IMG/VR virus record: IMGVR_UViG_3300044712_002101
Span: 1-41,929 of that record
Direction: 5' to 3' (one strand)
Source: a virus
Length of the DNA: 41,929 nucleotides
Each line of letters starts with the position of its first letter. Positions within the stretch are counted from its first letter, which is position 1. The position numbers and the translations under genes were made by a program. Under the pieces are notes generated by a model, which had not been told where the DNA came from, searched no databases, and saw only the letters and a program-made list of their open reading frames with translations. Of this stretch, positions 2,202-35,101 are shown in pieces.

Positions 2202-2479
2202 TTTATTTGTCCTCCAGTGCTGAAGCCAGAAAACGCATAGAGACCTACGTAGACAGCCATGGCGTCCGCAGGGTTCAGAAAACCGGGAAGATTTACCGGG
2301 ACTATGCCGCTGTAAGAGAATTCAAGAGAACACACCCAAAACCTGAAGACGGCCGCGCCTGGGATGTAGATCATATCGTTCCGCTGGCTCAAGGTGGCGC
2401 AGACAAACCATCAAACATGCAATGGGTACCCACTGAAGAGCATCGCAGGAAAAACGGCCGGCCCCGTAAAACATCATGA
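2156..2479 (+). CDS. Exported HNH endonuclease
   Basis: The gene encodes 107 residues. The ATG at 2156 follows AAGGATG and overlaps the end of the preceding gene. Residues 1-24 look like a signal peptide (basic start, hydrophobic core, SSSAEA cleavage region). The rest contains an HNH motif: [17 protein letters not shown], and EEHRRKNG supply the H, N and H positions. HNH nucleases cut DNA with a bound metal ion. A periplasmic one in a lysogen could attack incoming phage or other foreign DNA; that role is inference. The stop overlaps the integrase start by ATGA. Confidence 0.75.
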
Positions 2480-3939
2480 AATCAGCCGCCATCTACATCC
2501 GCAAATCCCGTGAAGACAAGGATAAGCCCTCCCACCGCCTCACCGTCCAGCGGGAGCAGTTGCCCGCCTACGCTGCTGCTCAGGGGTGGAGCAGCACCAT
2601 CTACGACGACGGCCATGCCTCCGCTGCCCAGGGCAAAACCGAAAGCCTTAAGGAACGTGCCCGCCTCGAAACCGATATCCGTGCCGGCAATATCAACCTG
2701 ATACTCACCATTGAACTGTCGCGCCTCTCCCGTGACGACTCCCTCCAGGACTATGTCGCCTGGCTCGATCTCTGCTCAAAGCATGGCGTCAGGCTCGCCA
2801 CCATGTCGCGGATCCTCGACCCGGCGCAACACTCTGACTGGATGTTGCTGCTCATGGAGGGGGGCTTCTCCAGCGTCGAAATGCGCGTCCTGAAGGCCCG
2901 TATGAACGACGGCTGGCAGCAGGCCTATCGTGCCGGCAAATTCCTTGGCGGCACACCGCCACCGCCATACATTTACGATCACGCCACCGGCCGGCCGGTC
3001 ATCGATCCGGACAAGCTCCCGCAGATGACGCGGCTCTGGAACCTTGCCGAAACTCTCTCCGCCAAAGCCATCGCCGAAAAACTCAAGATACCGGAAATTG
3101 CCGTCCGCCGCGCCATCAGTGACGATCGGCTCAACTTCTACCAGGCACAACGTATCAACGAAGAGACCGGCGAAATAATCGCCTGCGACTGGGAGCCGTG
3201 CATGTTTGCAGACCAGGCGCAGCGGATCCGATCCGGCCGGCGCAGTCGCAAAAACGGCAGCGGCCAGCGGGCAGCATACAGTTCGCTGCTCTCTGCAATG
3301 AACCTCGTCTATTGCGGCTATTGTGGCGGATTCGTAAAAACCTGGCAGGGGCCAAAGCGGGGCGAAAAGACACCTACGGCATACTATAGTTGCTCAAAGA
3401 AAAACGGCCATACTTGCCCAAAGGCGCGCATGTTCCAGCAGCCGGACATCAATAGCCTGGTAGTTGGGAATCTATTGAAGGTCATCAGCAACCTGGACGC
3501 GCTGAAGCATTTCTGGGATGTCTCACGGGATGATAACGCCACCATGAAAGAGCTGGCCGAACTGACAAAAAAAGCAAAGGCAGTAGAGCAAAACAAACAG
3601 CGGCTCGTAACGGCAATAGCAGAGGGAGTGATCGAATTCGCGGACGCGAAAGGACAGATGCAGAAACTTAACGAAACACACGACGAGATTAAAAGTAAAC
3701 AGCAGCAGATATTAAGCCAGCTCCAGGATCCGCCGGACTGGGACGCCTTAGCCATCACGACCGAGGAGTTCCACAACATGGACATGGCCGATCAAAGAGA
3801 AATACTCCGCAATGCAATAACCCGCATCGACATCTACAACAGCTACGCCATCATCACCTATCCATTCCCGCGCAACATCTCCGGAAACCGCACCTCAAGA
3901 ATCCATTTACCGCCGCCCAGAAAAAGAGAAAGCCTGTAG
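2476..3939 (+). CDS. Large serine recombinase (phage integrase)
   Basis: The gene encodes 487 residues. The resolvase-type catalytic domain is at residues 1-150, with the nucleophile Ser in YIRKSREDK and the conserved arginines in ELSRLSRDD. A recombinase domain follows (about 155-260), then a zinc-ribbon segment with paired Cys (YCGYCGG ... YYSCSKK ... CPKA, about 275-320) and a C-terminal coiled coil (about 350-430). This is the usual build of large serine integrases that join attP and attB. It would integrate the phage into the host chromosome. It is translationally coupled to the HNH gene. The integron integrase at 29460-30497 is a different enzyme class. Confidence 0.93.
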   Translation: MKSAAIYIRKSREDKDKPSHRLTVQREQLPAYAAAQGWSSTIYDDGHASAAQGKTESLKERARLETDIRAGNINLILTIELSRLSRDDSLQDYVAWLDLCSKHGVRLATMSRILDPAQHSDWMLLLMEGGFSSVEMRVLKARMNDGWQQAYRAGKFLGGTPPPPYIYDHATGRPVIDPDKLPQMTRLWNLAETLSAKAIAEKLKIPEIAVRRAISDDRLNFYQAQRINEETGEIIACDWEPCMFADQAQRIRSGRRSRKNGSGQRAAYSSLLSAMNLVYCGYCGGFVKTWQGPKRGEKTPTAYYSCSKKNGHTCPKARMFQQPDINSLVVGNLLKVISNLDALKHFWDVSRDDNATMKELAELTKKAKAVEQNKQRLVTAIAEGVIEFADAKGQMQKLNETHDEIKSKQQQILSQLQDPPDWDALAITTEEFHNMDMADQREILRNAITRIDIYNSYAIITYPFPRNISGNRTSRIHLPPPRKRESL

Positions 3940-4201: not shown

Positions 4202-5650
4202 TTAATTCGGTATATCTGCCGCATTGCGGCTCTTTTCGTACCAATTGTTGCCGTCATATTGAAATGTGATTGATCTGTTGTAGCCAGTTGCTGGGTTTGT
4301 CCACGCCGTCATTTTAAATTTTGTATCCCATGTCGCCGTTCCAAGCGCTCCGCCAGAAGTGTTGTAAATCCTGACTGTAATCTCCTGTCCGGCCTGTGGA
4401 GCTGTTCCTGTGGCAGTTGGATTGCTTATAGTGAACCCTGTTCCATTATTTGCGATAATAGTGAACAGCCCGCCATCTGCAACGTTGATCGCCATTGTCC
4501 CTGAATATGTCACCTGCTTGTGCGCCTGGTGTAGCATGTGTGTCCCGCCATTCTGGGCGATGATCCAGCGGACATATCCATTGGCAGCATCTGTACCGTA
4601 CATGATTGGGTCGGTAGCTACATCTGAACCTGGGGTTAAAAGCAACGCCGCGCCGCCGGCTGTCGGCTCTAGTCGAAGCGCAGGCGCTCCGCCTCTTATG
4701 AAAGATGACCCTGTAGAGCCATTGGTCGCATCAATAGCCTTTGCGGTTGTAGTATCTGTCTGCACAGGACTTATCAGTAGCCCGGTATTTCTGAATTCTG
4801 TAATAAGCGCGCCGTAATACCAAGAGGCATTATCTGAAGTTGGTGTCGAGGGAAATGCCGCGCCAATTGTTAAAGCCGTCCCTGCCTTATGTGTGCTGCC
4901 TGAAGAGATGGCGAGGCCTGTATGCCCCCATCCGCCAAAAACATCATCACGCGAATTGAGGTCTATCTCCACAGTAATGTTGCCGCCCACAAGATAGGTA
5001 TATCCGGTATGGGAGCCGGCGGTGGATTTAAGAGTCAAATGTGTGTCGTCTTGTACGGAAGCAATCGTGTAATACGAAACTCCCACCGGCGTGGTTGATG
5101 ACGGCCCGATGTAGATAGTGGCATTTTCCCACCCCGTACCCGTCAAGAATTTATCACCGGACACCCAGGTAACGGCGGTTCCCGATACATCGATAACTCC
5201 TGTTGGTCTTGCATCTGAGGTAGTCATCGGGTTAAGGGAAGTAATGTTAGTACCACTCTTGCCCCCGCGGTGAACCGCAAAAGACCCGGCTAGCGCAATA
5301 TTGAAATTTTGAATTGGGGACGCAGTGGGCGTCACGCCGCTCCACATCTGCGACACGACGTTAAAGTTGTTACCATTATTTGTCGGCGGATTATCGTAGG
5401 AGTTCACCTCTACAGTGCTGGCCGCCAAAGGAAGATCCTGGGTAACATTGGGGACAACATTGCCGCCATTAAAGATGTGCAGCCGGTTTTTTGTATAAAC
5501 GTCGTTGGCGGGCAGTTTCTTGAGCTCTACGGCCGCGGCAGAGAGGTTGGTAAATGGTTTAGCCTGGCCTGAAGGGCTGACGATCAGGCCGGCAGCACCG
5601 GCAGCGGTGCCGTAGAGCAGAGCAGCAATGATAATAATAGCAGTTCTCAT
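4202..5650 (-). CDS. Exported beta-rich protein at the end of the tail operon
   Basis: The gene encodes 482 residues from the ATG at 5650, behind TTGGAGG. Residues 1-19 form a clear signal peptide (MRTAIIIIAALLYGTAAGA). The rest is low in charge and rich in Thr, Gly, Ser and Asn, as in beta-helical or spike-like proteins. I do not recognise a family. Position directly after the tail-tip genes suggests a virion or receptor-related role, but a signal peptide is unusual for a virion protein, so secretion to the host periplasm or cell surface is an alternative. Confidence 0.65.
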   Translation of the reverse strand: MRTAIIIIAALLYGTAAGAAGLIVSPSGQAKPFTNLSAAAVELKKLPANDVYTKNRLHIFNGGNVVPNVTQDLPLAASTVEVNSYDNPPTNNGNNFNVVSQMWSGVTPTASPIQNFNIALAGSFAVHRGGKSGTNITSLNPMTTSDARPTGVIDVSGTAVTWVSGDKFLTGTGWENATIYIGPSSTTPVGVSYYTIASVQDDTHLTLKSTAGSHTGYTYLVGGNITVEIDLNSRDDVFGGWGHTGLAISSGSTHKAGTALTIGAAFPSTPTSDNASWYYGALITEFRNTGLLISPVQTDTTTAKAIDATNGSTGSSFIRGGAPALRLEPTAGGAALLLTPGSDVATDPIMYGTDAANGYVRWIIAQNGGTHMLHQAHKQVTYSGTMAINVADGGLFTIIANNGTGFTISNPTATGTAPQAGQEITVRIYNTSGGALGTATWDTKFKMTAWTNPATGYNRSITFQYDGNNWYEKSRNAADIPN

Positions 5651-15807: not shown

Positions 15808-16230
15808 TCACAACCCCACCGCCGCCCGCTCATCCCGCGCCCACTGGCGGATGCTTTCCACATACTCGCCATAGGCCAGCACCGCCTGCTGCTCGCCCGG
15901 CTGCATCTGGTACGCACCCATGAGAGCGCCAACGCTGATGCGGGCGAAATACATCTCATCCTCGGCATCATAGCGCTCGCGGATCTTCTCCTTGATGCGC
16001 TGGTTGATCAGCTGGAAGTACGGCGCTTCGGTCTTCAACAGCTCCCGCGCCGGATCGTCAGCCGGCAGCTCGGTCAGTTCAATACCGGCCGGGATAACCG
16101 GCTCAATGCCGGCAGATATCGACACGTAGGTGATGCCGTCCAGCGTCACCAGCTCCATAACCCCTTCACCGGATACCTGGTGCACTGTGTACGAGTCGAT
16201 AATTTTTCGGTATGAGCAGATTCTTGCCAT
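15808..16230 (-). CDS. Protein following the DGR reverse transcriptase, possible fibre assembly protein
   Basis: The gene encodes 140 residues behind AAGGAGGCC. Its first 65 bases overlap the end of the reverse transcriptase gene in another frame. The C-terminal half is charged and helical. In other phages the gene after a tail-fibre module is often a fibre assembly chaperone, which would fit here because it closes the fibre-DGR block. There is no clear motif, so this is a positional guess. Confidence 0.5.
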   Translation of the reverse strand: MARICSYRKIIDSYTVHQVSGEGVMELVTLDGITYVSISAGIEPVIPAGIELTELPADDPARELLKTEAPYFQLINQRIKEKIRERYDAEDEMYFARISVGALMGAYQMQPGEQQAVLAYGEYVESIRQWARDERAAVGL

Positions 16231-17185
16231 GGCTGATGGCCTCCTTCATGATATTCAGCAGATGCGGCAGACTGTCGGTTCTTTTGGTATGGCCAAGGAT
16301 CGAGGCGGCTGCCTTTTGATTTTCGGTGCTACATACACGCTTGAACCTGTAAAGACTGTGCTTGCGAATAAAGCGCCGGCTGCGCCAGGTGCGGTAGCCA
16401 ACGAAGTTGAGGCCGCGCTTTACTTTCTGGATGCCGAACTTTGACAGGGTGAGCTTGAGATATCGTGACAGGAAGCCGGTGATGATATCCAGTAGACTGC
16501 GGCACTCCAGTCGGGCCAGGCCGATCAGGATGAAGTCATCCACGTAGCGGACATATTTTCTGATGCCCAGATCCCTCTTGATAAAGTGATCCAGTGGATT
16601 CATGTAGATCAGCGCATAGAGCTGCGACAGAAGATTGCCGATAGGAATACCGGTTTTAGTGTCAAGCTGGGCATACATCATCATGACGGCAACGAGGCGC
16701 TTGTCTTTGATTACCCGCTCGATCTGCCCTCGGAGAATGTCCCGGTCGATGCTGGCGAAGAATTTGCGGATATCCAGCTGCAGGGTGTAGCTGTCGGCAT
16801 CGCTGCTGCGCAAAGCCCGCTGTGTGTAGTCGCTGGCCTTGTGCGTGCCCATGCCGACCCGGCAGGCAAAGGATTGATCGATAAAGCGGCGATTGAAGAG
16901 CGGATAGATAACCCGGTAGATGGCGTGCTGGACAACGATGTCGCGGAAGTGCGGCGCGTGGATCGTGCGGCGCTTCGGTTCCGTCACCTCGAAAACCACA
17001 TAAGGCCGAGGTTGATAGGTGCCGGCGTGGATCTCGCTGTAAAGGTCATCAAGGTTGGAGCCCAGATGCTTCTCGAACTCAAAGGTCGCTTTCTTGCTGC
17101 GCTTCCCCTTACAGGCATCAAGGTAGGCTTGACACAGGTTTTCTCTGGTGAAGATCGTATTAAAAAGGTTGCCGTGACGTTTCAT
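16166..17185 (-). CDS. DGR reverse transcriptase
   Basis: The gene encodes 339 residues. I place the start at the ATG at 17185, after AGAGGTG; a longer frame reaches back through the template repeat and is not used. The RT core carries the catalytic YVDD (in KYVRYVDDFILIGL) and the motif IGNLLSQ, the form typical of DGR enzymes in place of the QGxxxSP seen in retroviral and group II intron enzymes. Its role is to copy the template RNA with errors at adenines so that the cDNA replaces the variable repeat of the fibre gene. Avd, TR, VR and target gene are all adjacent. Confidence 0.95.
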   Translation of the reverse strand: MKRHGNLFNTIFTRENLCQAYLDACKGKRSKKATFEFEKHLGSNLDDLYSEIHAGTYQPRPYVVFEVTEPKRRTIHAPHFRDIVVQHAIYRVIYPLFNRRFIDQSFACRVGMGTHKASDYTQRALRSSDADSYTLQLDIRKFFASIDRDILRGQIERVIKDKRLVAVMMMYAQLDTKTGIPIGNLLSQLYALIYMNPLDHFIKRDLGIRKYVRYVDDFILIGLARLECRSLLDIITGFLSRYLKLTLSKFGIQKVKRGLNFVGYRTWRSRRFIRKHSLYRFKRVCSTENQKAAASILGHTKRTDSLPHLLNIMKEAISHGKNLLIPKNYRLVHSAPGIR

Positions 17186-17444
17186 GCTGCCACCTCTGAC
17201 GTTCGGAATACGCCTACCAGAAAGAGGTGGACCGGTGATTTCGCCCATGGCCGGACAATAGCTCCCTGTATCTCCACTACGCGCTTTACCAGCGTGCGCC
17301 ATGAGGAAAGACAGTCTGCGCGGAACCCAACATTGTTGTTCGAATTCGACCGGGCATTGTTGAAATTGACAGCCCAAACCCCGGCATTCGACCCATTGTT
17401 CCAATTGTAGCAAGAGAGCGGCACCATAATGAGTTATTGCCCGT
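17186..17444 (-). ncRNA. DGR template RNA region
   Basis: This stretch between the avd stop and the reverse transcriptase start has no gene but holds the template repeat (17311-17427) and a 125-base spacer after it. In studied DGRs the RNA from the end of avd to the start of the RT gene is the template, and the spacer carries the priming structure. The ends of the RNA are inferred. Confidence 0.75.
17311..17427 (-). repeat. DGR template repeat (TR)
   Basis: 117 bases, aligned without gaps to the variable repeat at 17878-17994 (offset 567). There are 15 differences, and every one falls on an adenine of the TR (T on the plus strand): 17315, 17334, 17336, 17337, 17339, 17340, 17358, 17360, 17367, 17387, 17388, 17396, 17397, 17406 and 17408. 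The TR holds 26 adenines in total, most in AAC or AAT codons, so mutation at them can yield many amino acids while avoiding stops. Confidence 0.97.
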
Positions 17445-17862: not shown

Positions 17863-20082
17863 TCAGCCCACAGGGTAACAGGCTGCGCGGAACCCAACAT
17901 AGAGGAGCGAATTCGACCGGGCATAGCTGAAATAGACAGCCCAAACCCCGGCAGCCGACCCAGAGTTCCAATGGAAGCAAGAGAGCGGCACCATTTCGTT
18001 GATAATGTACTGATAGTAGTAATCCACACCGAACAGGCTGGCACCACTGGCGGATATACTGGTACTTGCCCGTGGTAGTCCCAGCCCGGTCAGCTTCCAC
18101 GGATCGCCACTGGTATCGCCGGCCAGCACCTGCTGGCTGCTGTTGCCGAATTTCTGCGTAACTGCGCCGTTGACCATCGGTAGGCTAATGGCATCGAAGT
18201 TGGCGGCCACTCCGGTCGCACCCCAGTGATCGGTGGCGCCGGTGTTGCCGCTGGTAATGCTTTTCATGCTCACCGACTGCTTCAGCACGTAGAATGTCCC
18301 GGTGGTGATGGTGCCAGCTGAGGAGTAGGCGGTATAGCCGCTGGAGTTGATCCCGGATAATTCAAAGGTGTTGGTGGTAGCATTGGCAACAGTGTGGATG
18401 ATGTCGTTAACCTGAGTCATGCCGACGACGCCGGTAATCAGGATCTGGGTGCCGTTGGTCAATCCGTGATTATTACTGGTGACAACTGCCGGGTTTGCCT
18501 GAGTAATACCGGTGATGCTCTTGGTCGTAGCAATACAGGTCATGCCGGGCGAGACTTCGTACATCAGGCCGTTCAGGTCGGCAATGCCGCACTCCTGACC
18601 GTTGTGGGTGGTTTTGGCGAACGGTACACCGGAGCCGGTCAGGGCGCAGTTCTGGTAGCCGTCACTGATAAACTTTACAGTGGTGTCGTCGCTGTCCGCC
18701 AGGGCGTTATTGTTGCATCCTTTCGGGAAATTGGTGGTGCCAGAAGACCACCAGGCGCAGTTGGCCGTACCGCCCGATGCCTGCCCGTGGGCCATGGAAA
18801 TCAGCGCCAGAGCGCCGTAGATGAAGCGGCTGGTACAGAAGAATATCGAGTTGGCATTTTTTGCGCCATTGACGCCATCCCGCGCCTTGGCAACATCCAG
18901 CGCGGCATAGTAGTAGTTGGCCCCGGCAGTGCAGCCAGCCAGCGGGTTGTGAGCGCTGGCAGTTGACAGCGGCTTGCCCCCCTTGATGGAGCTGCCGATA
19001 TAGCCGCTGCCACAGGCATTTTTCGAGGCCATGTACTTGTCAACGAAAAAGCCGCTCTGCTCCACATCGCCGTCAATAAAGGCGCGGTGCAGCGCATAAC
19101 CATCGGCGTTGGCAGCGGCGGTGTTGGCATAGGCGGAGGATGCCTTAATCATAACCACGTTGCGGTTGATACCGTTGCCCCACGTAACCGCGCCGGCCGA
19201 GGAATAGGCAGTGTAACCGGTAGAGTTGACCCCCTGCAGCTCGAAGGTGTTGGTGGTGACATTGGCAACGGTAAAGGTCAGGTCATTGACCTGCGTCATG
19301 CCGACGACGTTATTGATGACCACGGTAGCACCATTGGAGAGGCCATGAGCGGCGGCAGTGACGACAGCAGGATTGGCCTGAGTAATGGCAGTAATGGCGG
19401 TGCTGTACTGCGTGCCGATCTTGTAATAGAACTTCGGCACCCAGACCATGATAGAGCCATCCTGATACTGGTAGTTGCCATAATTGGGCGAAAGGCGGTC
19501 ATTGCAGCCAGCCATGGCGACCATACCGGTCGGGATGGCGGCAGGCGGAGCAATGCCGACGCCGAAACCGGCCATGCCGGGGGTGCCGATGTTGTTGTTG
19601 AAAAACACATCCAGCTTGCCATCCAGGGCGGTCTGCAGGCCGGTGATGGTGTTGATGGCCTGGTTGTGATCCGTGGGGGTGCGGGCGTCGGTGAGGCGGG
19701 CATCGGTGGTGTTGACCGGAGTGAAGCCAAGGGCGTCCTGCTTGCCGTTCCAGGTACTTTTCTCGGTGTCAGTGGCGAAGCGATGGGTGCTGTCCTCGGT
19801 GACATCGGTGGCCGCGTGGCTGTGGCTGGTAGGGGTACGGGCGTCGGAGAGACGTGGGTCGGTAGGGGCGACATAATCCGTTCCGGCTGTTGCTGTAATT
19901 ATATTGGTTCCATCTCCAGCTAGTATGCCGGACAGATTTGTGGAAGTAGTTAAAGAAATCAAGCTGAGGCCGGCCGGTCCAGCCGGAGCGTTGATACTGA
20001 CGACAATGACGGCGGAGGCCGATTCGTTGATAAACACTGTCGGCATGGTATCCTGGATAATGACGGTCGGGATGACGATCAT
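17863..20082 (-). CDS. DGR-diversified tail fibre / receptor-binding protein
   Basis: The gene encodes 739 residues; the ATG overlaps the stop of the gene before it. The N-terminal part (to about 160) has fibre-like repeats (LSDARTPTSHSH, LTDARTPTDHNQ). The rest has the C-type-lectin/formylglycine-enzyme-like fold used by DGR targets, with the variable repeat at residues 697-735. Compared with the template the current protein differs at eleven residues (such as N to H, A, Y, S and L). Two similar inserts of about 70 residues (about 227-297 and 519-592, both with ITQANPAVV) interrupt the lectin region. It should determine which host receptor is bound. Confidence 0.93.
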   Translation of the reverse strand: MIVIPTVIIQDTMPTVFINESASAVIVVSINAPAGPAGLSLISLTTSTNLSGILAGDGTNIITATAGTDYVAPTDPRLSDARTPTSHSHAATDVTEDSTHRFATDTEKSTWNGKQDALGFTPVNTTDARLTDARTPTDHNQAINTITGLQTALDGKLDVFFNNNIGTPGMAGFGVGIAPPAAIPTGMVAMAGCNDRLSPNYGNYQYQDGSIMVWVPKFYYKIGTQYSTAITAITQANPAVVTAAAHGLSNGATVVINNVVGMTQVNDLTFTVANVTTNTFELQGVNSTGYTAYSSAGAVTWGNGINRNVVMIKASSAYANTAAANADGYALHRAFIDGDVEQSGFFVDKYMASKNACGSGYIGSSIKGGKPLSTASAHNPLAGCTAGANYYYAALDVAKARDGVNGAKNANSIFFCTSRFIYGALALISMAHGQASGGTANCAWWSSGTTNFPKGCNNNALADSDDTTVKFISDGYQNCALTGSGVPFAKTTHNGQECGIADLNGLMYEVSPGMTCIATTKSITGITQANPAVVTSNNHGLTNGTQILITGVVGMTQVNDIIHTVANATTNTFELSGINSSGYTAYSSAGTITTGTFYVLKQSVSMKSITSGNTGATDHWGATGVAANFDAISLPMVNGAVTQKFGNSSQQVLAGDTSGDPWKLTGLGLPRASTSISASGASLFGVDYYYQYIINEMVPLSCFHWNSGSAAGVWAVYFSYARSNSLLYVGFRAACYPVG
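17878..17994 (-). repeat. DGR variable repeat (VR)
   Basis: The copy that receives mutations, ending four codons and the stop before the end of the fibre gene. The non-variable 3' part, GGGTTCCGCGCAG, is GC-rich and identical to the TR, as expected of the initiation-of-mutagenic-homology element. A small stem (17864-17868 with 17881-17885) lies just after it, similar in place to the hairpins reported downstream of other VRs. Confidence 0.97.
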
Positions 20083-28810: not shown

Positions 28811-29463
28811 GCTTCATCCTCAATGTCGGCGTAGCGATCGAACATGTCGTCGATCATGTCTTCGAAGGCGGTGCTCAGGTCGTGGGTGCGGGCCAGTAAT
28901 CCGGCGCGCTCTTCGTCGCTGGAGATGACCGGCAGGGCCAGGTTAATCAGTTCATGGACGATGGCGGCGGCGTTGTTGTAGATGTCGGCCTTGATGGCGG
29001 CCCAGAGTTTGGCGTCGCGGGCTTCTTCTTCATCCCGGCGGATGAGCAGGCCTTCGCGCTCTTCGTTGTTGAGGCGCAGTTTGCGGGCGGTTTCGCGCTT
29101 GACTTCGTCGGACAGGTCGGAGGTGACGACCGCGGGGACGCTGTTCTTAAGGGGAAGCTGGTCGGCAGCGGCGTAGTAGTCCAGGTCTTTGGCACAATAA
29201 AAGCCATCTTTGCGCGGGATCTTGCCGGCGGCGACGTCTTTGGAGAGCTTGCTTTTCTCGATCTTGTACTGCTTCTGCAGATATTCCAGGGCTGCCGCCT
29301 GGGTTTTGAAGCGCGGCTCGGGGCCGGCCGCGGCCGCGGCGTACTCTTCCAGCGCCTTGCGTGCCTTTTCGACGGCGGCAATGTTGGCGGTGGTAGGCGC
29401 AGCGGTGGCGGCGTCTTTGGCGGCTTTATAGATAGCCTGCAGGTCGGCAGCGTGGGTGGTCAT
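28807..29463 (-). CDS. Terminase small subunit (Nu1-like)
   Basis: The gene encodes 218 residues. The middle part ([20 protein letters not shown], then [10 protein letters not shown], about 53-90) is the winged HTH of Nu1-like subunits that reads the packaging site. The rest is helical. The start codon overlaps the stop codon of the integron integrase (ATGA), so the two genes are translationally coupled. Confidence 0.85.
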
Positions 29464-30497
29464 GTCAGCATCCTGTCCAGTGGGCTTTTGATTGATGGTT
29501 TTTTCTGCATGACGTGGGTGTAGATCATGGTCGTGGTTACGGACTTGTGGCCGAGAAGTTCCTGCACGGTACGGATCGTTTCGCCATCTTCGAGCAAGTG
29601 GGTGGCGTAGGAGTGACGGAAGGTGTGCGGGGTAACGTGCTTGTGTATCCTGGCTGCCAGCCGTGCAGCCTTGACCGCTTTCTGAATTACCGTTTCATGG
29701 ATGTGTGGCCGTCCCTGCTCTCCGGTGTCCTGATTCACCCAGCGGGAATGAGCCGGGAAAAGGAACTGCCAGCCGAATTCGCGGTTTGCGTTCGGGTATT
29801 TCCGGGCAAGAGCCCCAGGGAGTTCGACTGCTCCCCAGCCGTCGCGCAGATCCTGCTCATGGATCGCCTTAACTTTGTCAATATGCCGCTTTAGCCGCTC
29901 CGTGACGGACTCTGGCAGGTTCAGCACCCTTGCGCTGCCGCCTTTGCTTTCCCTCACTGTCACGGTATGCTGCCCGAAATCAATATCCTTTATCCGCAGA
30001 TGTAGACAATCAACTTCGTTTCGCAAGCCGCAGCCATAGAGAAGAGCGCAAACAAGCCAAACGTCGCCCTTGAGGTTATCAAGTATCGCAGCGACTTCTT
30101 CTTTGGTGCAAACAACCGGTATGCGTTGTGGCTTCTTTGCCCTGAGTGCGTTAATCTCGCCCGGTTCTTGGACAAGAACACGACGATAGAAGAACAACAG
30201 GGCATTGAATGCGACATTCTGTGTTGATGCGGAGATGTTTTTCTTTGCTAGGTGAGTCAGGTAATCTTCAATAGCTTTAGCGCCATGGTCTGCGTGAGGT
30301 TGTTTAATCTGGAAGTCGATGAAGTCAGCGACGTAATTGCTATACATTCTTTCGGTTGCCTTTGAATAATGTTTCAGCCGTATAGCCTTACAGAGCTTAT
30401 CTAAGAGGAAATCTTTTTTAATCTGCTTTCCGCTTTTTACAATTCTGTTATCAGGTGTTGGTAGATGGAAAACGTTGTCTTTTCGGGCAGTATTCAT
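29460..30497 (-). CDS. intI: Integron integrase (IntI-type tyrosine recombinase)
   Basis: The gene encodes 345 residues behind AAGGAGGAAA. The tyrosine recombinase residues are visible: Arg in GCGLRNEVD, Lys in RESKGGS, HxxR in [12 protein letters not shown], His in LLGHKSV and Tyr in TTMIYTHV. It carries the extra segment that marks IntI ([20 protein letters not shown], about residues 228-247) and ends in the IntI-typical SPLDRML. One extra residue follows the first Arg compared with common IntI. IntI binds folded single-stranded attC sites and joins cassettes at attI. An attI-like core and six cassettes lie immediately upstream. Confidence 0.92.
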
Positions 30498-30556
30498 GAC
30501 TTTCCTCCTTTTTTGGATATACAGCTAAAACGGGTTGATAATCATTGTTAGATTAC
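30498..30556 (+). other. attI-like site next to intI
   Basis: A GTTAGAT core lies at 30547-30553, 50 bases from the intI start, where attI is expected. Cassette 1 begins after its G (at 30548). The first ten bases across this point, GTTAGATTAC, are the exact reverse complement of the R'' end of attC1 (31174-31183). Confidence 0.75.
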
Positions 30557-30705
30557 TCTGCCAATTCCTCTGCAAGTGCCACGTCCAGCAAAGTCATAAC
30601 CTCTTCGTCAGAGACTTCAGCTTTTGCCGCCAACACTGCGATAACAGATTTTAGAGCCTCCATCTGAAACAGCATCCGTTTGTAAACTTCGTCGGTAATT
30701 TCCAC
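30553..30705 (-). CDS. Cassette 1 small protein, GTG start
   Basis: The gene encodes 50 residues from the GTG at 30705, seven bases after AAGGAGG; the ribosome site lies in the end of the gene before it. The product is acidic and helical, with no known domain. Its stop (30553-30555) lies just inside the attI end of the cassette. Confidence 0.6.
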   Translation of the reverse strand: MEITDEVYKRMLFQMEALKSVIAVLAAKAEVSDEEVMTLLDVALAEELAE

Positions 30706-30707
30706 GG

Positions 30708-30863
30708 TCACGCCTCCTTCATTTCGTTTGGTCTGGTCATGCTGTGGCAGCTTGGACACTCCAAATGCTCAACATTGACCTCATCAAAAACAGCTTGCCA
30801 GTCATGACCGCAGAAATAGCAGTAGACTGATTTTGTAACCCATTGCGCCGGATACTGGCTCAT
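30708..30863 (-). CDS. Cassette 1 small zinc-ribbon protein
   Basis: A 51-codon gene with the ATG at 30863 overlapping the stop of the gene before it (ATGA). Two Cys pairs (YCYFCGHDW and LECPSCHS) form a zinc ribbon. The three genes of this cassette are packed without space and are probably one translation unit. Confidence 0.65.
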   Translation of the reverse strand: MSQYPAQWVTKSVYCYFCGHDWQAVFDEVNVEHLECPSCHSMTRPNEMKEA

Positions 30864-31159
30864 GATTTCCCTACCGCCTTCAGCGCGGACAGTGCTATCG
30901 AGTGCGCTTCTGCTCCATGGATAAACTTATTCCCTGCAATTTCCTGCAACGCTTTCAATAAAACATAGAATGATTCGGCTCTTGTCTGGGTATCATCGTA
31001 GTGCCCATCGAACTCTTTACCGCAATCTTCGCATTTTTTGTATTTGTAAACACCACCTGACGATGGGGTACCTTTTTGATACATGCTCTTGCTCTTGTGG
31101 TTCGAATGTCCGCCGCACTCAGGGCATTCAAGCGGGTGAATAAATTTTTTTACAGCCAT
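30860..31159 (-). CDS. Cassette 1 zinc-ribbon protein
   Basis: The gene encodes 99 residues from the ATG at 31159, behind AGGAGG. Cys pairs in ECPECGGHS and KKCEDCGKEF form a zinc ribbon of the transcription-factor-like type at residues 10-50; the rest is helical. It may bind nucleic acid; the function is not known. The start lies 18 bases from the R'' box of attC1. Confidence 0.7.
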   Translation of the reverse strand: MAVKKFIHPLECPECGGHSNHKSKSMYQKGTPSSGGVYKYKKCEDCGKEFDGHYDDTQTRAESFYVLLKALQEIAGNKFIHGAEAHSIALSALKAVGKS

Positions 31160-31176
31160 GACAACCTCCTTTCGTA

Positions 31177-31236
31177 ATCTAACCACGCCTCGGACCTGAC
31201 CGAAAAGCACGTCAGGTCAAGGCGCAGCCGTTATAG
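31177..31236 (+). other. attC1
   Basis: R'' ATCTAAC (31177-31183), R' GTTATAG (31230-31236). Arms CGCCTcGGACCTGAC and GTCAGGTCaAGGCG pair. The left arm has one more base than the right, the asymmetry that marks L'' and sets the plus polarity. Confidence 0.9.
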
Positions 31237-31244
31237 TGCTCTAG

Positions 31245-31433
31245 TTACAGTTTCAAAGCTGCCACCAGTGCAGAAAGTTTACCGGTGGTGTCTCTTGGCT
31301 CTTGTTCCTCAATGAGTCTGGCCGCCGTTTCAATCGCCATATTGTAGCCATCCACAAAACTCTTCTCTTTGCAGCGGTGTATTTGCCGAGGCATTAACGG
31401 CAGTCCGCAATGTTCGCAAGGCGTAATTCCCAT
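31245..31433 (-). CDS. Cassette 2 small Cys-containing protein
   Basis: The gene encodes 62 residues from the ATG at 31433, after GGAGGG. The N-terminus has CEHCGLPL and a further CK pair, a possible zinc site; the C-terminal half is helical (NMAIETAARLIEEQE). It follows the methyltransferase gene by 16 bases. Function unknown. Confidence 0.65.
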   Translation of the reverse strand: MGITPCEHCGLPLMPRQIHRCKEKSFVDGYNMAIETAARLIEEQEPRDTTGKLSALVAALKL

Positions 31434-31449
31434 GTTCAATCCCTCCCCG

Positions 31450-32136
31450 TCATAGTGCTAAAGCTACCTGTTCGTGCTTCCCTTCGAGTGGATACCCTTG
31501 GAAAAGTGATAATTGTTGCATAACCCGCTCAATCCGTTCACACGCGGGCCAGAAGTAATCCGGGTCCACTTCATAGGCCGTCACGCTGTAACCGGCCTCA
31601 AGACAGGCAATCACACTGCTACCGCTACCCAAATGAGTGTCAAGAATCGCCTGCCCCTGCTTGGCAAAATTCAGGAGCAGCCAGCTATACAGCGGTACTG
31701 GCTTTTGCGTCGGGTGAATCTTGCCCTTGTAGTCGCCGCAGGCCAGCGGGTCCCGGTTGAAAATTTTGGCGTTGGCGTCAAAGCTGGTCCATGCCTGTTC
31801 GCACTCCGCATAACTCCGGTCCTTGAAGCCTGCCCCCTTATTCCAAATGGCAAAACAGCGGGTAGGCGGGAGCGGGAAATAGTTACCGCCCCATATGACC
31901 TGATTCCGGGACACCCGCCGAAGTTCGGCAAAATATTCAGGTGGTGGCGGCTCTTTGTCCCAGTCTTTCTTTGCCATCCGCGACGACACCCACTTGCCTT
32001 TCTGAGCTTGCCCAAAGTCGATACCATACGGAGGGTCAACGATTGCCAAGTCAAAAGCCTTGTCAGCCATTCCCTGCATTCCCTCCATATTGTCACCGAG
32101 GAAGAGAGTTGCTTTGCCAATCGTTACAGATTCCAT
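31450..32136 (-). CDS. DNA methyltransferase (N4-cytosine/N6-adenine type)
   Basis: The gene encodes 228 residues from the ATG at 32136, after AGGGG (32139 is possible). The catalytic motif DPPYGIDF comes first (about residue 35) and the AdoMet-binding motif LDTHLGSGSS late (about residue 170), with HPTQKP before it. This order is that of the beta class of amino-methyltransferases. There is no restriction enzyme gene nearby, so it is probably an orphan enzyme that protects phage DNA from host restriction. It is carried as cassette 2, with a small gene after it. Confidence 0.88.
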   Translation of the reverse strand: MESVTIGKATLFLGDNMEGMQGMADKAFDLAIVDPPYGIDFGQAQKGKWVSSRMAKKDWDKEPPPPEYFAELRRVSRNQVIWGGNYFPLPPTRCFAIWNKGAGFKDRSYAECEQAWTSFDANAKIFNRDPLACGDYKGKIHPTQKPVPLYSWLLLNFAKQGQAILDTHLGSGSSVIACLEAGYSVTAYEVDPDYFWPACERIERVMQQLSLFQGYPLEGKHEQVALAL

Positions 32137-32152
32137 CATCACCCCTACCGCA

Positions 32153-32214
32153 CTATAACCAGCTTGCTGGTGCTGTCTGCGCTGCGCTTGCAGCACAGCA
32201 GCAGACCGTTATGC
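32153..32214 (+). other. attC2
   Basis: R'' CTATAAC (32153-32159), R' GTTATGC (32208-32214), a perfect consensus. The arms around TGCTGG and CAGCAGAC pair imperfectly. GCACTATAAC at its left end is the exact reverse complement of the start of cassette 2 (GTTATAGTGC). Confidence 0.85.
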
Positions 32215-32385
32215 GTCGAGCGCCTTCAATGCTTCACGCAATTTTTCATTCTCGTTTCGTTCACTCTGCCGGGATGCCCTGAGAGTCTGAATAAGCTCTT
32301 CTTGCGCCTTAACCTTGGCTTTCAGCGCGTCAATAGCGCCTTGTTGCGGATATATCCAATATATGCAGGCTCTCAACAGTCTCAC
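32209..32385 (-). CDS. Cassette 3 small coiled-coil protein
   Basis: The gene encodes 58 residues from a GTG at 32385 that overlaps the stop of the lipoprotein gene (GTGA), behind AGGAAAA. The C-terminal 40 residues are a coiled coil (LKAKVKAQEELIQTLRASRQ). The N-terminal part is mildly hydrophobic. The stop codon is the TTA of the attC2 core read on the minus strand. Confidence 0.6.
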   Translation of the reverse strand: MRLLRACIYWIYPQQGAIDALKAKVKAQEELIQTLRASRQSERNENEKLREALKALDA

Positions 32386-32693
32386 GGCTTTTCCTGCTGT
32401 ACTTTTTTGCACTCTGCAGCAAGAGTCTCTTCCTTGAATTTTGGGTCCGCCATTTTCGACCAATCCAGAGTTTTCTGGTTTGCCTGCGCTGCCAGATTCA
32501 CAAGGACTTTTTCAGCCACGCAGCAGCAGTTTCCATTGTAGTAGCTGACAGATACCGTGCCGTTTGTTGCTTCCCACGTATCTGGCCCCATCCAGCCGTG
32601 ATGAGTTTTGACGCGAACCTCTGCACATCCAGAGGAAACGCATAACAAGAAAATGCAGCACACCATCAATACCGTTGTTTTCAGCTTGTTCAT
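32382..32693 (-). CDS. Cassette 3 lipoprotein
   Basis: The gene encodes 103 residues from the ATG at 32693, behind AAGGAG. An N-terminal lipoprotein signal ends in the lipobox VSSGC; the mature part contains NGNCCC. It overlaps the coiled-coil gene that follows. A cell-envelope role, for example surface change of the lysogen or lysis, is possible. No family is recognised. Confidence 0.7.
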   Translation of the reverse strand: MNKLKTTVLMVCCIFLLCVSSGCAEVRVKTHHGWMGPDTWEATNGTVSVSYYNGNCCCVAEKVLVNLAAQANQKTLDWSKMADPKFKEETLAAECKKVQQEKP

Positions 32694-32715
32694 GTCAATT
32701 CTCCTTTTCCTTGTC

Positions 32716-32753
32716 GCACCCACTCAAGGGTGCTGATTTTCCAGCCGTTATAA
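32716..32753 (+). other. attC3, degenerate
   Basis: The right end AGCCGTTATAA is intact and a central hairpin (GCACCC 32716-32721 with GGGTGC 32728-32733) is present, but I find no R'' box (no AAC) on the left. It may still act as an R'-only acceptor, or cassettes 3 and 4 may now move as one. Confidence 0.6.
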
Positions 32754-32764
32754 TCATCTTGGCT

Positions 32765-33355
32765 CTATGGCCTGTCGGCCAGTGCTTCGCGGGCAATTTC
32801 TACCAATCGAGAAAATGCATCTGGCCATGTGGTAATAAGTGCTGAATCCTTCCCAAAATCTCGGATTGCCGCCAAGGCCCAAAAGAACTTCTGTGCACCT
32901 TCTCGCCACTTTTTCGCATCCTCGGAAGCGTTGTCATACCAGAGCCGCCACTTGTCCACGCTCTCCCGATATTCATCAAGTGACTTATTCGCCTCGTTTA
33001 GTTCCTTGCGCAGATGTTCACTCAGTGCCTGTTCGGTCTTCTGCCCCATCATGTATGCCAGTTTCAGCATTTGCTGCTCATCACCCGACGGGCTTTCAAT
33101 AAGCGTGTCCTCTCCATCCCGGAACAGGTAATCAATCGAATCCTGAATCAGCATGGCGCACGCCGTACGGTCATGCGTTAATTTCTCCTGTTCCAATCTG
33201 AGCGGGAGCGTTTCCAGCAGCAGCCGCAACAGGCAGTTTGCATCATGCTTGTCTTGCAGCTTCTGACCGCGCAACGACTCACGGAAGGCAATGTCGTCGC
33301 AGACAGCACAATCACAACCCTGCTCATGACCAGTCAATTCTTCTGCCGTTTTCAT
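32765..33355 (-). CDS. Cassette 4 hypothetical protein
   Basis: The gene encodes 196 residues behind AAGGGAGAG. It starts with a Cys/His cluster (HEQGCDCAVCDD) and goes on with long charged helices, including a coiled coil (about residues 110-160). It overlaps the small zinc protein gene before it by ATGA. Proteins of this kind are common among phage genes of unknown function. Confidence 0.65.
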   Translation of the reverse strand: MKTAEELTGHEQGCDCAVCDDIAFRESLRGQKLQDKHDANCLLRLLLETLPLRLEQEKLTHDRTACAMLIQDSIDYLFRDGEDTLIESPSGDEQQMLKLAYMMGQKTEQALSEHLRKELNEANKSLDEYRESVDKWRLWYDNASEDAKKWREGAQKFFWALAAIRDFGKDSALITTWPDAFSRLVEIAREALADRP

Positions 33356-33522
33356 AGGCTCTCCCTTATTGGTGCTTCACATCCGCAAACCGGACAATAT
33401 GCCCGTCTGCCCCATTGTATGCGACGGTCTTCAGGGGCACCCCGCCAGCCGCATTGACATGAGGCAATCGGCTTTTCCCCTCGACCTCTCCACGGATTTT
33501 CACAGCCACATTGTTTACACAT
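33352..33522 (-). CDS. Cassette 4 small zinc-finger protein
   Basis: The gene encodes 56 residues from the ATG at 33522, after GGAGG. Cys are grouped as CKQCGCENP, CQCGWRG and CPVCGCEAP, enough for two zinc sites. The start is 39 bases from the R'' box of attC4. Function unknown. Confidence 0.65.
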   Translation of the reverse strand: MCKQCGCENPWRGRGEKPIASCQCGWRGAPEDRRIQWGRRAYCPVCGCEAPIRESL

Positions 33523-33560
33523 CGTATGCCTCCGGCAGTGCTTCGCACTCGCCAAGATGA

Positions 33561-33619
33561 TTCTAACCAAACATTCAAGCGGGCTGGTAAAGCCCGCCGC
33601 TTAATTCAAGCCGTTATAA
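33561..33619 (+). other. attC4
   Basis: R'' TTCTAAC (33561-33567), R' GTTATAA (33613-33619). L'' TTCAAGC and L' GCTTAA differ by the single extra base that marks polarity, exactly as in the well-known aadA attC (TTCAAGCC against GGCTTAA). The stem around GGGCT/AGCCC closes it. Confidence 0.92.
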
Positions 33620-34438
33620 TTTTTCTACCTTGGAAGCCGCAATCGACGGTCTCGCCCACTGCCTGCCCCATTTCTGCCAAACTGGATCACGACGCCCTGA
33701 GTTGTCCCGGTACAGCATCGCCATCGGTAAAAATCCTGCATCAATCGTTTGCTGCATCCTGATCTTGGCGGCGTCGAGCGTATCAGCAGGCCAGCCACAC
33801 AGCACGTAAGCACGGAGGGCGTGACTCGTTGTGGTGAATCCTGCATCAAGGAGCATCCGGCCTGCACGTTGCAGCGGTTCCAGGTCATCGGGCGTGTCGT
33901 TGGCAAAAAACAACTGTTTCGGCTTCAAGTCGCGAAGTAAATCAACATGCCACTGCTCAAGCCGCTTTGCCTCCATTCCGCCAGTAAATTGCACCGGCCC
34001 TGCCTTTTTGTTGCGTTTTAGCATGGCAAAAACTGCCCGCTGGTGTTCTTCGGTGCAGGCGAAAAGGTTGTCATCAAGCACGTTCCAACCGTCTGTTATC
34101 GGCAATTCCCGCACTTCATGCCCCTCTCGCCGCCAGACAGAGCAAAACCAGCAACTATTCGGGCATCCCCGAGAAGTTAGAACGAAGCCCTGTTTTACGT
34201 ACCGCCCCGGCACAAACTCCCTACCAGCCTCACCAGTGGCAGGGCCACCAATACGAACCGGCGCAACGCATGACCACGCCTGCGCCAACCGTTCAGCAAG
34301 GGGCAAATCCCATGTGAAAGTACAGGAGACATGCACCTCATCAGCCTCGTCGAAAAGGTCGGGCTCCGTTCCGATCCTGACCAGATCGTCAACAGGTGTT
34401 GCATTCGTTTTGCGGGGAAAAACCCTGATGATTCGCAT
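33614..34438 (-). CDS. Radical SAM protein
   Basis: The gene encodes 274 residues from the ATG at 34438, after GGAG; a longer frame to 34474 would enter attC5. The CxxxCxxC iron-sulphur motif is visible (CPNSCWFC, about residue 100). The rest fits a radical SAM barrel. Such enzymes start radical reactions with S-adenosylmethionine; the substrate cannot be told. This is the only gene of cassette 5. The stop codon is the TTA of the attC4 core. Confidence 0.85.
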   Translation of the reverse strand: MRIIRVFPRKTNATPVDDLVRIGTEPDLFDEADEVHVSCTFTWDLPLAERLAQAWSCVAPVRIGGPATGEAGREFVPGRYVKQGFVLTSRGCPNSCWFCSVWRREGHEVRELPITDGWNVLDDNLFACTEEHQRAVFAMLKRNKKAGPVQFTGGMEAKRLEQWHVDLLRDLKPKQLFFANDTPDDLEPLQRAGRMLLDAGFTTTSHALRAYVLCGWPADTLDAAKIRMQQTIDAGFLPMAMLYRDNSGRRDPVWQKWGRQWARPSIAASKVEKL

Positions 34439-34460
34439 TCCTACTCCATGGCCCGAAAAA

Positions 34461-34521
34461 TTATAACAATACACTGGAAACAGACTTCGCTTCGCTCGCT
34501 GTTCAGTTCAAGCCGTTATCG
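34461..34521 (+). other. attC5
   Basis: R'' TTATAAC (34461-34467), R' GTTATCG (34515-34521). Arms ACTGGAAACAG and CTGTTCAGT pair with two extra bases on the left. GAAAAATTATAAC matches the reverse complement of the start of cassette 5 over 13 bp. Confidence 0.9.
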
Positions 34522-34812
34522 GTATACCATCCATCCTTCTTCGATCTTGTCCAGACGCTCAGTGATTCTTTCAATTCTATTTTCCAGATTCATCACGTAT
34601 CCAGCCAATACAAGGTTGTCAGGTACTCCGAGCTGATGCGCCTTGTCTTTGACGCGCTGTTCCGCCTCAAATTGCCAGATAGCAACCATTTCTTCATGGA
34701 AGCGGGTTAGCTCATCGCGGTGATCTTCAAAGCCCTCGGTATACTCAATATCCCAACAAGGGTCGTATTCCCATTGGCGCTTTAACTCCTTGATTTCGGA
34801 CTCTGTTTTCAT
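34516..34812 (-). CDS. Cassette 6 hypothetical protein
   Basis: The gene encodes 98 residues from the ATG at 34812, six bases after AAGGAG. The product is acidic, helical and Trp/Glu-rich (segment WEYDPCWDIEYTEGFEDHRD), with a coiled-coil end. No family is recognised. The stop is the TTA of the attC5 core. Confidence 0.7.
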   Translation of the reverse strand: MKTESEIKELKRQWEYDPCWDIEYTEGFEDHRDELTRFHEEMVAIWQFEAEQRVKDKAHQLGVPDNLVLAGYVMNLENRIERITERLDKIEEGWMVYR

Positions 34813-34826
34813 ATTCAACTCCTTTC

Positions 34827-34881
34827 CGATAACCAGCGTTCCGACCAGCCCGAAAGCTGGTCAAACGCATGGCTGTTCGGC
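34827..34881 (+). other. attC6
   Basis: R'' CGATAAC (34827-34833), R' GTTCGGC (34875-34881). GCGTTCCGACCAGC pairs with GCTGGTCAAACGC; the left arm has one more base. CCGATAAC is the reverse complement of the start of cassette 6 (GTTATCGG). It is the last full attC. Confidence 0.88.
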
Positions 34882-34920
34882 GCGCCCACTCGCTTCGCTC
34901 GTTAAAATCGCGCGCCGAAC
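34875..34920. repeat. Inverted repeat after the last attC: cassette remnant or terminator
   Basis: GTTCGGCGCGC (34875-34885) and GCGCGCCGAAC (34910-34920) are perfect inverted copies. In the intact cassettes the cassette start is the reverse complement of its own R'' box in the same way, so this may be what remains of a seventh cassette whose gene and attC were lost. It could also act as a terminator of the gene that stops at 34940. Confidence 0.6.
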
Positions 34921-34939
34921 GGAGGCGGCGGATGAGCGG

Positions 34940-35101
34940 CTAGCCGGTGTCCAGGTCTGTAGCGGTGACGATCAATCCGGTTGCAGTGGCCGTGAGATGG
35001 ACGAAGTTGAGGATGGGCATGGTGGCGCGGCTGTTGCCGGCGATCTGCTGGATGCGGCCGAGTGCTTCGACAAACTCTTTCTTCGGCACGGTGAATTTCA
35101 T
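34940..35101 (-). pseudogene. Beta-clamp (DnaN) N-terminal fragment
   Basis: The gene has 53 codons from the ATG at 35101, behind GGAGG, and overlaps the primase stop by ATGA. The start MKFTVPKKEFVEALGRIQQI, then TMPILNF and LIVTATDLD, is the first part of a DNA polymerase III beta clamp (normally about 370 residues). It stops at once after this, 20 bases from the cassette remnant. It is probably a clamp gene truncated by the cassette array. A short protein with a role of its own cannot be ruled out. Confidence 0.7.

Follow-up and report, generated by a model that had tools for sequence, protein, structure and literature searches.

An ordinary gene cassette consists of a gene and an attC site, which lies downstream of the gene and is moved with it. 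In Treponema integrons, intI is transcribed towards attI, in the same direction as the cassettes (PMC3607928). Integrons and attC arrays (CALINs) have already been reported in phages (Qi et al. 2023, PMC9892861), and antisense promoters have been described in the literature for Vibrio cassettes. A search of the open-access literature gave no report of a systematic reversal of genes in cassettes.

The present analysis concerns the complete IMG/VR record IMGVR_UViG_3300044712_002101, a stretch of 41,929 bases hereafter called the window, with phage genes for terminase, portal, head protease, tail and primase, almost all of which are encoded on the minus strand. The integron in the window resembles chromosomal and mobile integrons (class 1, Vibrio superintegron type) in the family of its IntI, the attI by the start of intI, the R''/L''/L'/R' boxes, the extra bases on L'' and the polarity directed outward from intI. 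Unlike in those integrons, the genes are inverted relative to attC, which stands ahead of the gene and its Shine-Dalgarno (SD) sequence, the stop codon comes from R', no Pc is evident, and the genes lie on the strand of intI. The phages of Qi et al. (PMC9892861) are alike with the window in having integron parts in phage genomes and methyltransferase cassettes. TJE1, Vibrio p16 and Shewanella M16-3 were scored, and all three have the canonical gene/attC relation, unlike the window.

Treponema-type integrons and the phages Rctr41k (KX853513) and L019 share with the window that intI and the cassette genes are transcribed one way. However, in the Treponema type intI is flipped relative to attI and the genes keep their usual relation to attC, whereas in the window intI is in place and the genes are flipped. 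In Rctr41k and L019, the attC sites lie downstream of intI with the genes in the usual relation, seemingly as in Treponema. There thus seem to be two routes by which phages bring intI and cassettes onto one strand, namely flipping intI or flipping the genes within the cassettes.

Results

The integrase gene and the attachment sites are as follows, where R1 and R2 are the two covariance models described below.

29460..30497, minus strand: intI, 345-aa integron integrase (TIGR02249, 385.3 bits against a cut-off of 265)
30537..30550, plus strand: attI core GATAATCATTGTTA, left part conserved in relatives, variable to the right of GTTA
31177..31236, plus strand: attC1 (R1 17.6 bits, R2 56.7 bits, both on the minus, that is bottom, strand)
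32153..32214, plus strand: attC2 (R1 11.7 bits, R2 46.6 bits)
32640..32753, plus strand: attC3, 114 nt (R1 11.7 bits), with the SD and ATG of gene c3b in its loop
33561..33619, plus strand: attC4 (R1 32.5 bits, E 3.8e-6; R2 52.7 bits)
34461..34521, plus strand: attC5 (R1 19.6 bits, R2 53.5 bits)
34827..34881, plus strand: attC6, terminal (R2 38.9 bits; not among the five R1 matches)

The TIGR02249 match of intI spans the whole model, and residues R159, K185, H291, R294, H317 and Y326 are intact in IntI and invariant in 10 phage homologues. The left part of attI is kept in relatives whose IntI proteins are 47-81% identical, conservation stops at GTTA, and the crossover is predicted to fall between the G and the TTA, after position 30547. 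The attI site and the array adjoin the 5' end of intI, and not its 3' end as in the Treponema type. With an IntI-type recombinase, an attI by intI and an array of folding attC sites all present, the window is confirmed, at the level of its sequence, to carry an integron. The recombinase at 29460..30497 was also checked for a role in lysogeny; it belongs to the IntI family, and a separate integrase-type serine recombinase (Resolvase domain, PHROG 95 integrase) is encoded at 2476-3936 on the plus strand, among the few genes of the window on that strand. A phage with this recombinase may be temperate and use it as a serine integrase.

The first-pass annotation had assigned plus polarity to the attC sites. 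R1 is a covariance model built from 26 of 69 attC sites of known polarity, taken from a class 1 integron and from bacterial integrons beside related intI genes, and it was run over both strands of the window with no filters; R2 is a second covariance model trained on phage attC sites, and the E-values of both models are rough. R1 finds five of the six sites of the window, on the minus strand only, which corresponds to a top-strand polarity of plus, away from intI; its matches to attC2 and attC3 are weak (E about 0.75). At attC6 the R' box is degenerate (GTTCGGC, 34875-34881), and the hairpin (34826-34880) has a folding energy of −16.2 kcal/mol with z −5.1. The R2 matches beyond its training set, which are L018 (46.5 bits), L013, L014, L003:4565 and L022:8380, have the same polarity. 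In the alignment of phage sites, the attC sequences covary in the attC pattern.

The arrangement of the extra bases is similar in phages and bacteria. Of the 62 phage sites, 58 were parsed; 49 have their extra bases on L'' and 2 on L', and 7 have none on either arm. Among the 69 bacterial and class 1 sites, L'' carries the extra bases in 66, and the other 3 have none on either arm. A C stands directly before R' in 54 of 58 phage sites, compared to 60 of 63 bacterial ones. The extra L'' base that had been noted in attC4 (TTCAAGC against GCTTAA) is present. The phage R' box is often GTTATNN and not GTTRRRY, which is why a strict attC pattern missed phage sites; the Rfam search of the array region gave no attC match.

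DNA folding of single sites, which the first-pass annotation had proposed, supports the hairpins, but as a test of polarity it was rejected, because both strands fold about equally. The arm asymmetry of attC2, taken alone, gives the wrong polarity. Plus polarity is nevertheless supported by the agreement of R1, the L'' extra bases, the box base asymmetry, the attI boundary and the homology ends, and the structure model R1, from which a minus polarity would have spoken against the earlier reading, matched only the strand that means plus.

The DNA comparison of homologous cassette pairs gave four blocks that hold a whole attC and run beyond it. Each of the four starts at most 4 nt from R', continues beyond R'' and enters the downstream gene at its 5' end; in no case does a block cross R'. 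The attC2 of the window together with the 5' end of the methyltransferase gene matches L022:7693-7834 (79% over 145 nt). Where the gene upstream is the common one, homology ends at the R' box (L015/window +8, L115/L119 +6, L009/L013 +10). In L133, the radical SAM gene has its own attC on one side and an attI on the other, and no attC follows it. In contrast to an ordinary cassette, attC is upstream and travels with the downstream gene. The homology edges at R', the layout of L133 and the attI boundary together indicate that attC moves as one unit with the gene that follows it, in the order C-attC-SD-ORF-TAA.

At L021 (7381-7438 and 7787-7844), the attC sites of neighbouring cassettes and the next 84 nt are 97% identical, resembling the outcome of a cassette duplication or a common 5' module.

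Divided in this way, the array consists of the following cassettes.

30548..31230, minus strand: cassette 1, with c1c (start 31159, zinc ribbon), c1b (30863-30708) and c1a (ends 30553)
31231..32208, minus strand: cassette 2, with a DNA methyltransferase (32139-31450; PF01555 1e-11, PHROG 67 5.8e-39) and c2a (31433-31245)
32209..32747, minus strand: cassette 3, with the lipoprotein-like c3b (32693-32382) and c3a (32385-32209), core stop TAA
32748..33613, minus strand: cassette 4, with the zinc-ribbon-like c4b (33522-33352) and c4a (33355-32765), ATGA overlap, SD GGGAG
33614..34515, minus strand: cassette 5, with a radical SAM protein (34438-33614; PHROG 9298 5e-16), core stop TAA
34516..34875, minus strand: cassette 6, with c6, 98 aa (34812-34516), core stop TAA

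Genes were called with a codon-usage caller of our own, the cassette genes being atypical in codon usage. From attI (G at 30547) to 34875 there are 11 ORFs, every one of them on the minus strand, as had been claimed, and no plus-strand ORF in the array of the window has a clearly positive coding score. Cassettes 1 to 4 are multi-gene; neighbouring genes in cassettes 1, 3 and 4 overlap by 4 nt as ATGA or GTGA (ATGA for c1c/c1b, GTGA in cassette 3), and the minus-strand genes carry SD sequences. A scan for relatives of the 196-aa protein of cassette 4 found none.

The earlier reading that the core GTTA supplies the TAA stop codon in cassettes 3, 5 and 6 (at 32209, 33614 and 34516) is correct. 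Of the 52 phage R' boxes with a stop triplet, 41 coincide exactly with the end of an ORF of 40 aa or more; the background rate, taken over all TAAC words of that strand, is 23%. A lipoprotein-like gene starts inside the window's attC3, and the same is seen at a similar site of L005.

The first-pass annotation proposed a comparison of gene orientation in related phages and bacterial integrons, for which related integrases were collected from IMG/VR and a control set from genomes. Fifteen related loci, 14 on viral contigs and one on a MAG contig, were counted apart from the six cassettes of the window; of their 30 cassettes, 28 are reversed, with the best gene on the intI strand, and 2 are opposite. 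For 79 bacterial loci, R1 gave 114 sites, 111 of them with the canonical polarity relative to intI, and the gene is on the usual strand in 66 of 75 bacterial cassettes and reversed in 9. The difference in reversal (28:2 versus 9:66) has a Fisher p of 1.7e-15. In the window all six cassettes are reversed, which has a chance of about 3e-6 at the bacterial rate of 9/75. Viral contigs hold 99 relatives of the cassette 5 radical SAM gene, and in an independent set based on this gene (80 loci kept) 19 of 20 attC matches stand in the reversed relation.

Some other elements were observed in the window. Past the last attC, a perfect 11-bp inverted repeat GTTCGGCGCGC...GCGCGCCGAAC is followed by GGCGGCGGATGAGCGG (34875-34941), a possible array-end element; a piece of GGCGGCGGATGAGCGG occurs twice in L002 (8314-8372, 7507-7519). 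The conserved GGCGGATGAGCGG near the array end was matched, among the fetched loci, in L002 only. A diversity-generating retroelement (16166-17427 and 17863-20082) has an RVT_1 reverse transcriptase, a template repeat at 17311-17427 and a variable repeat (17878-17994) that lies at the 3' end of a 739-aa gene; the repeats differ at 15 positions, all 15 of which are A in the template.

Discussion

We consider it highly probable that the window carries a phage-borne integron of a phage-specific lineage, in which reversed cassettes are recombined by IntI in the normal way and transcribed with the phage operon without Pc. The integrase, the polarity, the gene orientation, the unit boundaries, the recurrence and the cassettes common to phages are established by the sequences themselves, and from them we infer present recombination activity, the strand choice of IntI, read-through expression and selection of the orientation.

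In the proposed mechanism, IntI would fold the bottom strand of attC and cut it at R', between G and TTA (between TAA and C on the gene strand). Excision would take attC plus the gene or genes downstream of it, and the circle would be inserted at attI. Since attI points against phage transcription, every inserted cassette would land on the phage sense strand. In an inserted cassette, attC would form part of the 5' leader, the stop codon would lie at the cassette edge, and transcription would come as part of the phage operon, with no Pc promoter involved. In the array the coding strand is also the recombining strand, so that transcription might expose the latter.

Placement of the cassette genes on the strand of phage transcription, as the first-pass annotation had it, agrees with 51 of the 56 genes called in the window being on the minus strand. 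In the array region, 5 promoter matches were obtained against 4.1 expected, none above chance. With the genes on the phage strand and no promoter above chance, the cassette genes are likely to be expressed by read-through from the phage operon. The promoter matches gave no Pc reading into the array on the gene strand, as an ordinary integron would have; the missing Pc lowers the case for the label of ordinary integron, but not for an integron-like working. Because the cassette genes face attI, a promoter in attI would be antisense. A promoter-like match at 30514-30542 on the plus strand, at chance level, overlaps attI and points into the array, antisense to the cassette genes; it is possibly a relic of Pc.

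One of the two exceptions, a gene of L004 in the canonical orientation (4604-4894, minus strand), has its own consensus promoter TTGACA-16-TATAAT, so that the phage transcript is not needed. The spacer of this promoter holds a palindrome, and no other phage cassette gene carries a clear promoter for itself.

The earlier suggestion that the orientation has been selected is supported, as far as the comparison reaches, by the recurrence in many phages and by the L004 exception, but not by a count of independent events, because 15 phage IntI proteins (with reversed cassettes, or sister to such) form one clade (support 100/99), apart from all bacterial ones sampled. This single clade, together with the frequent position of the module between replication and packaging genes, would fit arrays that are largely fixed, with the reversal set once in the clade ancestor and inherited without ongoing capture or selection. 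We regard such fixation as unlikely, because the cassette contents vary among related phages, and the radical SAM gene at an attC of L015 is 74% identical to that of the window while the IntI proteins are 48% identical. Likewise, the attC sites of L004:5011 and L018:1259 are 96% identical despite distant IntI proteins, L017 and L115 have IntI proteins outside the clade, and reversed arrays with no close intI found on the contig occur in L127, L133, L135, L112, L108 and L109. The cargo is of phage type, with DNA methyltransferase, ThyX (L014, L018), NADAR, radical SAM and PAPS reductase-like genes.

Two further loci are of note. A phage reverse transcriptase (PHROG 1423) is encoded near the intI of another reversed integron (L017:7387-8676). 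At L121:4989-5840, a 12-bp direct repeat TAACCCTTGACC flanks a radical SAM gene beside a different tyrosine recombinase, perhaps as another cassette-like insertion.

Read along the gene strand, every hairpin is closely followed by an SD sequence, and the loop of attC3 even contains an SD and an ATG, as would be expected of RNA leader elements for mRNA stability, termination or control of the ribosome-binding site. That the hairpins are kept in this role and are no longer recombination sites is nonetheless improbable, since the AAC/GTT core boxes, the extrahelical bases and an intact IntI are retained along with the attC-pattern covariation, and RNA use alone leaves the sharp homology edge at R' unexplained. 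A polarity that is really minus, with IntI using the other strand, an ordinary gene/attC relation and attI on the primase side near 34880, is very improbable: the layout gene-TAAC...GTTA-gene does resemble an ordinary array if polarity is ignored, and the attC2 asymmetry alone fits, but the bacteria-trained model scores the other strand only, the extra bases favour L'' over L' (49 sites to 2), the boundaries of shared cassettes contradict it in that homology stops at R' and not at R'', and a conserved attI with the core GTTA adjoins intI in relatives.

Conclusions

The recurrence of the reversed arrangement in a phage-only integrase branch suggests that the integron exists in a phage version whose cassettes are of a distinct kind. 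Whether phages have in this branch an integron of their own, with a separate pool of reversed cassettes exchanged among phages and an attC-upstream route of cassette formation, and in which transcription could expose the recombining strand, is in our judgment evenly balanced.

Integron biology has yet to explain how attC sites come to be joined to genes. Reversed cassettes carry attC at the 5' end, and thus ideas tied to the 3' ends of genes cannot explain them. They offer a large natural collection with the gene-to-attC relation inverted and the rest of the integron machine unchanged, so that tests can separate what Pc, strand choice and cassette formation each contribute. Annotation that assumes the usual gene-attC order will misassign reversed cassettes. 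For the phages, the finding means that they hold a gene-capture platform of their own, with phage-type cargo.
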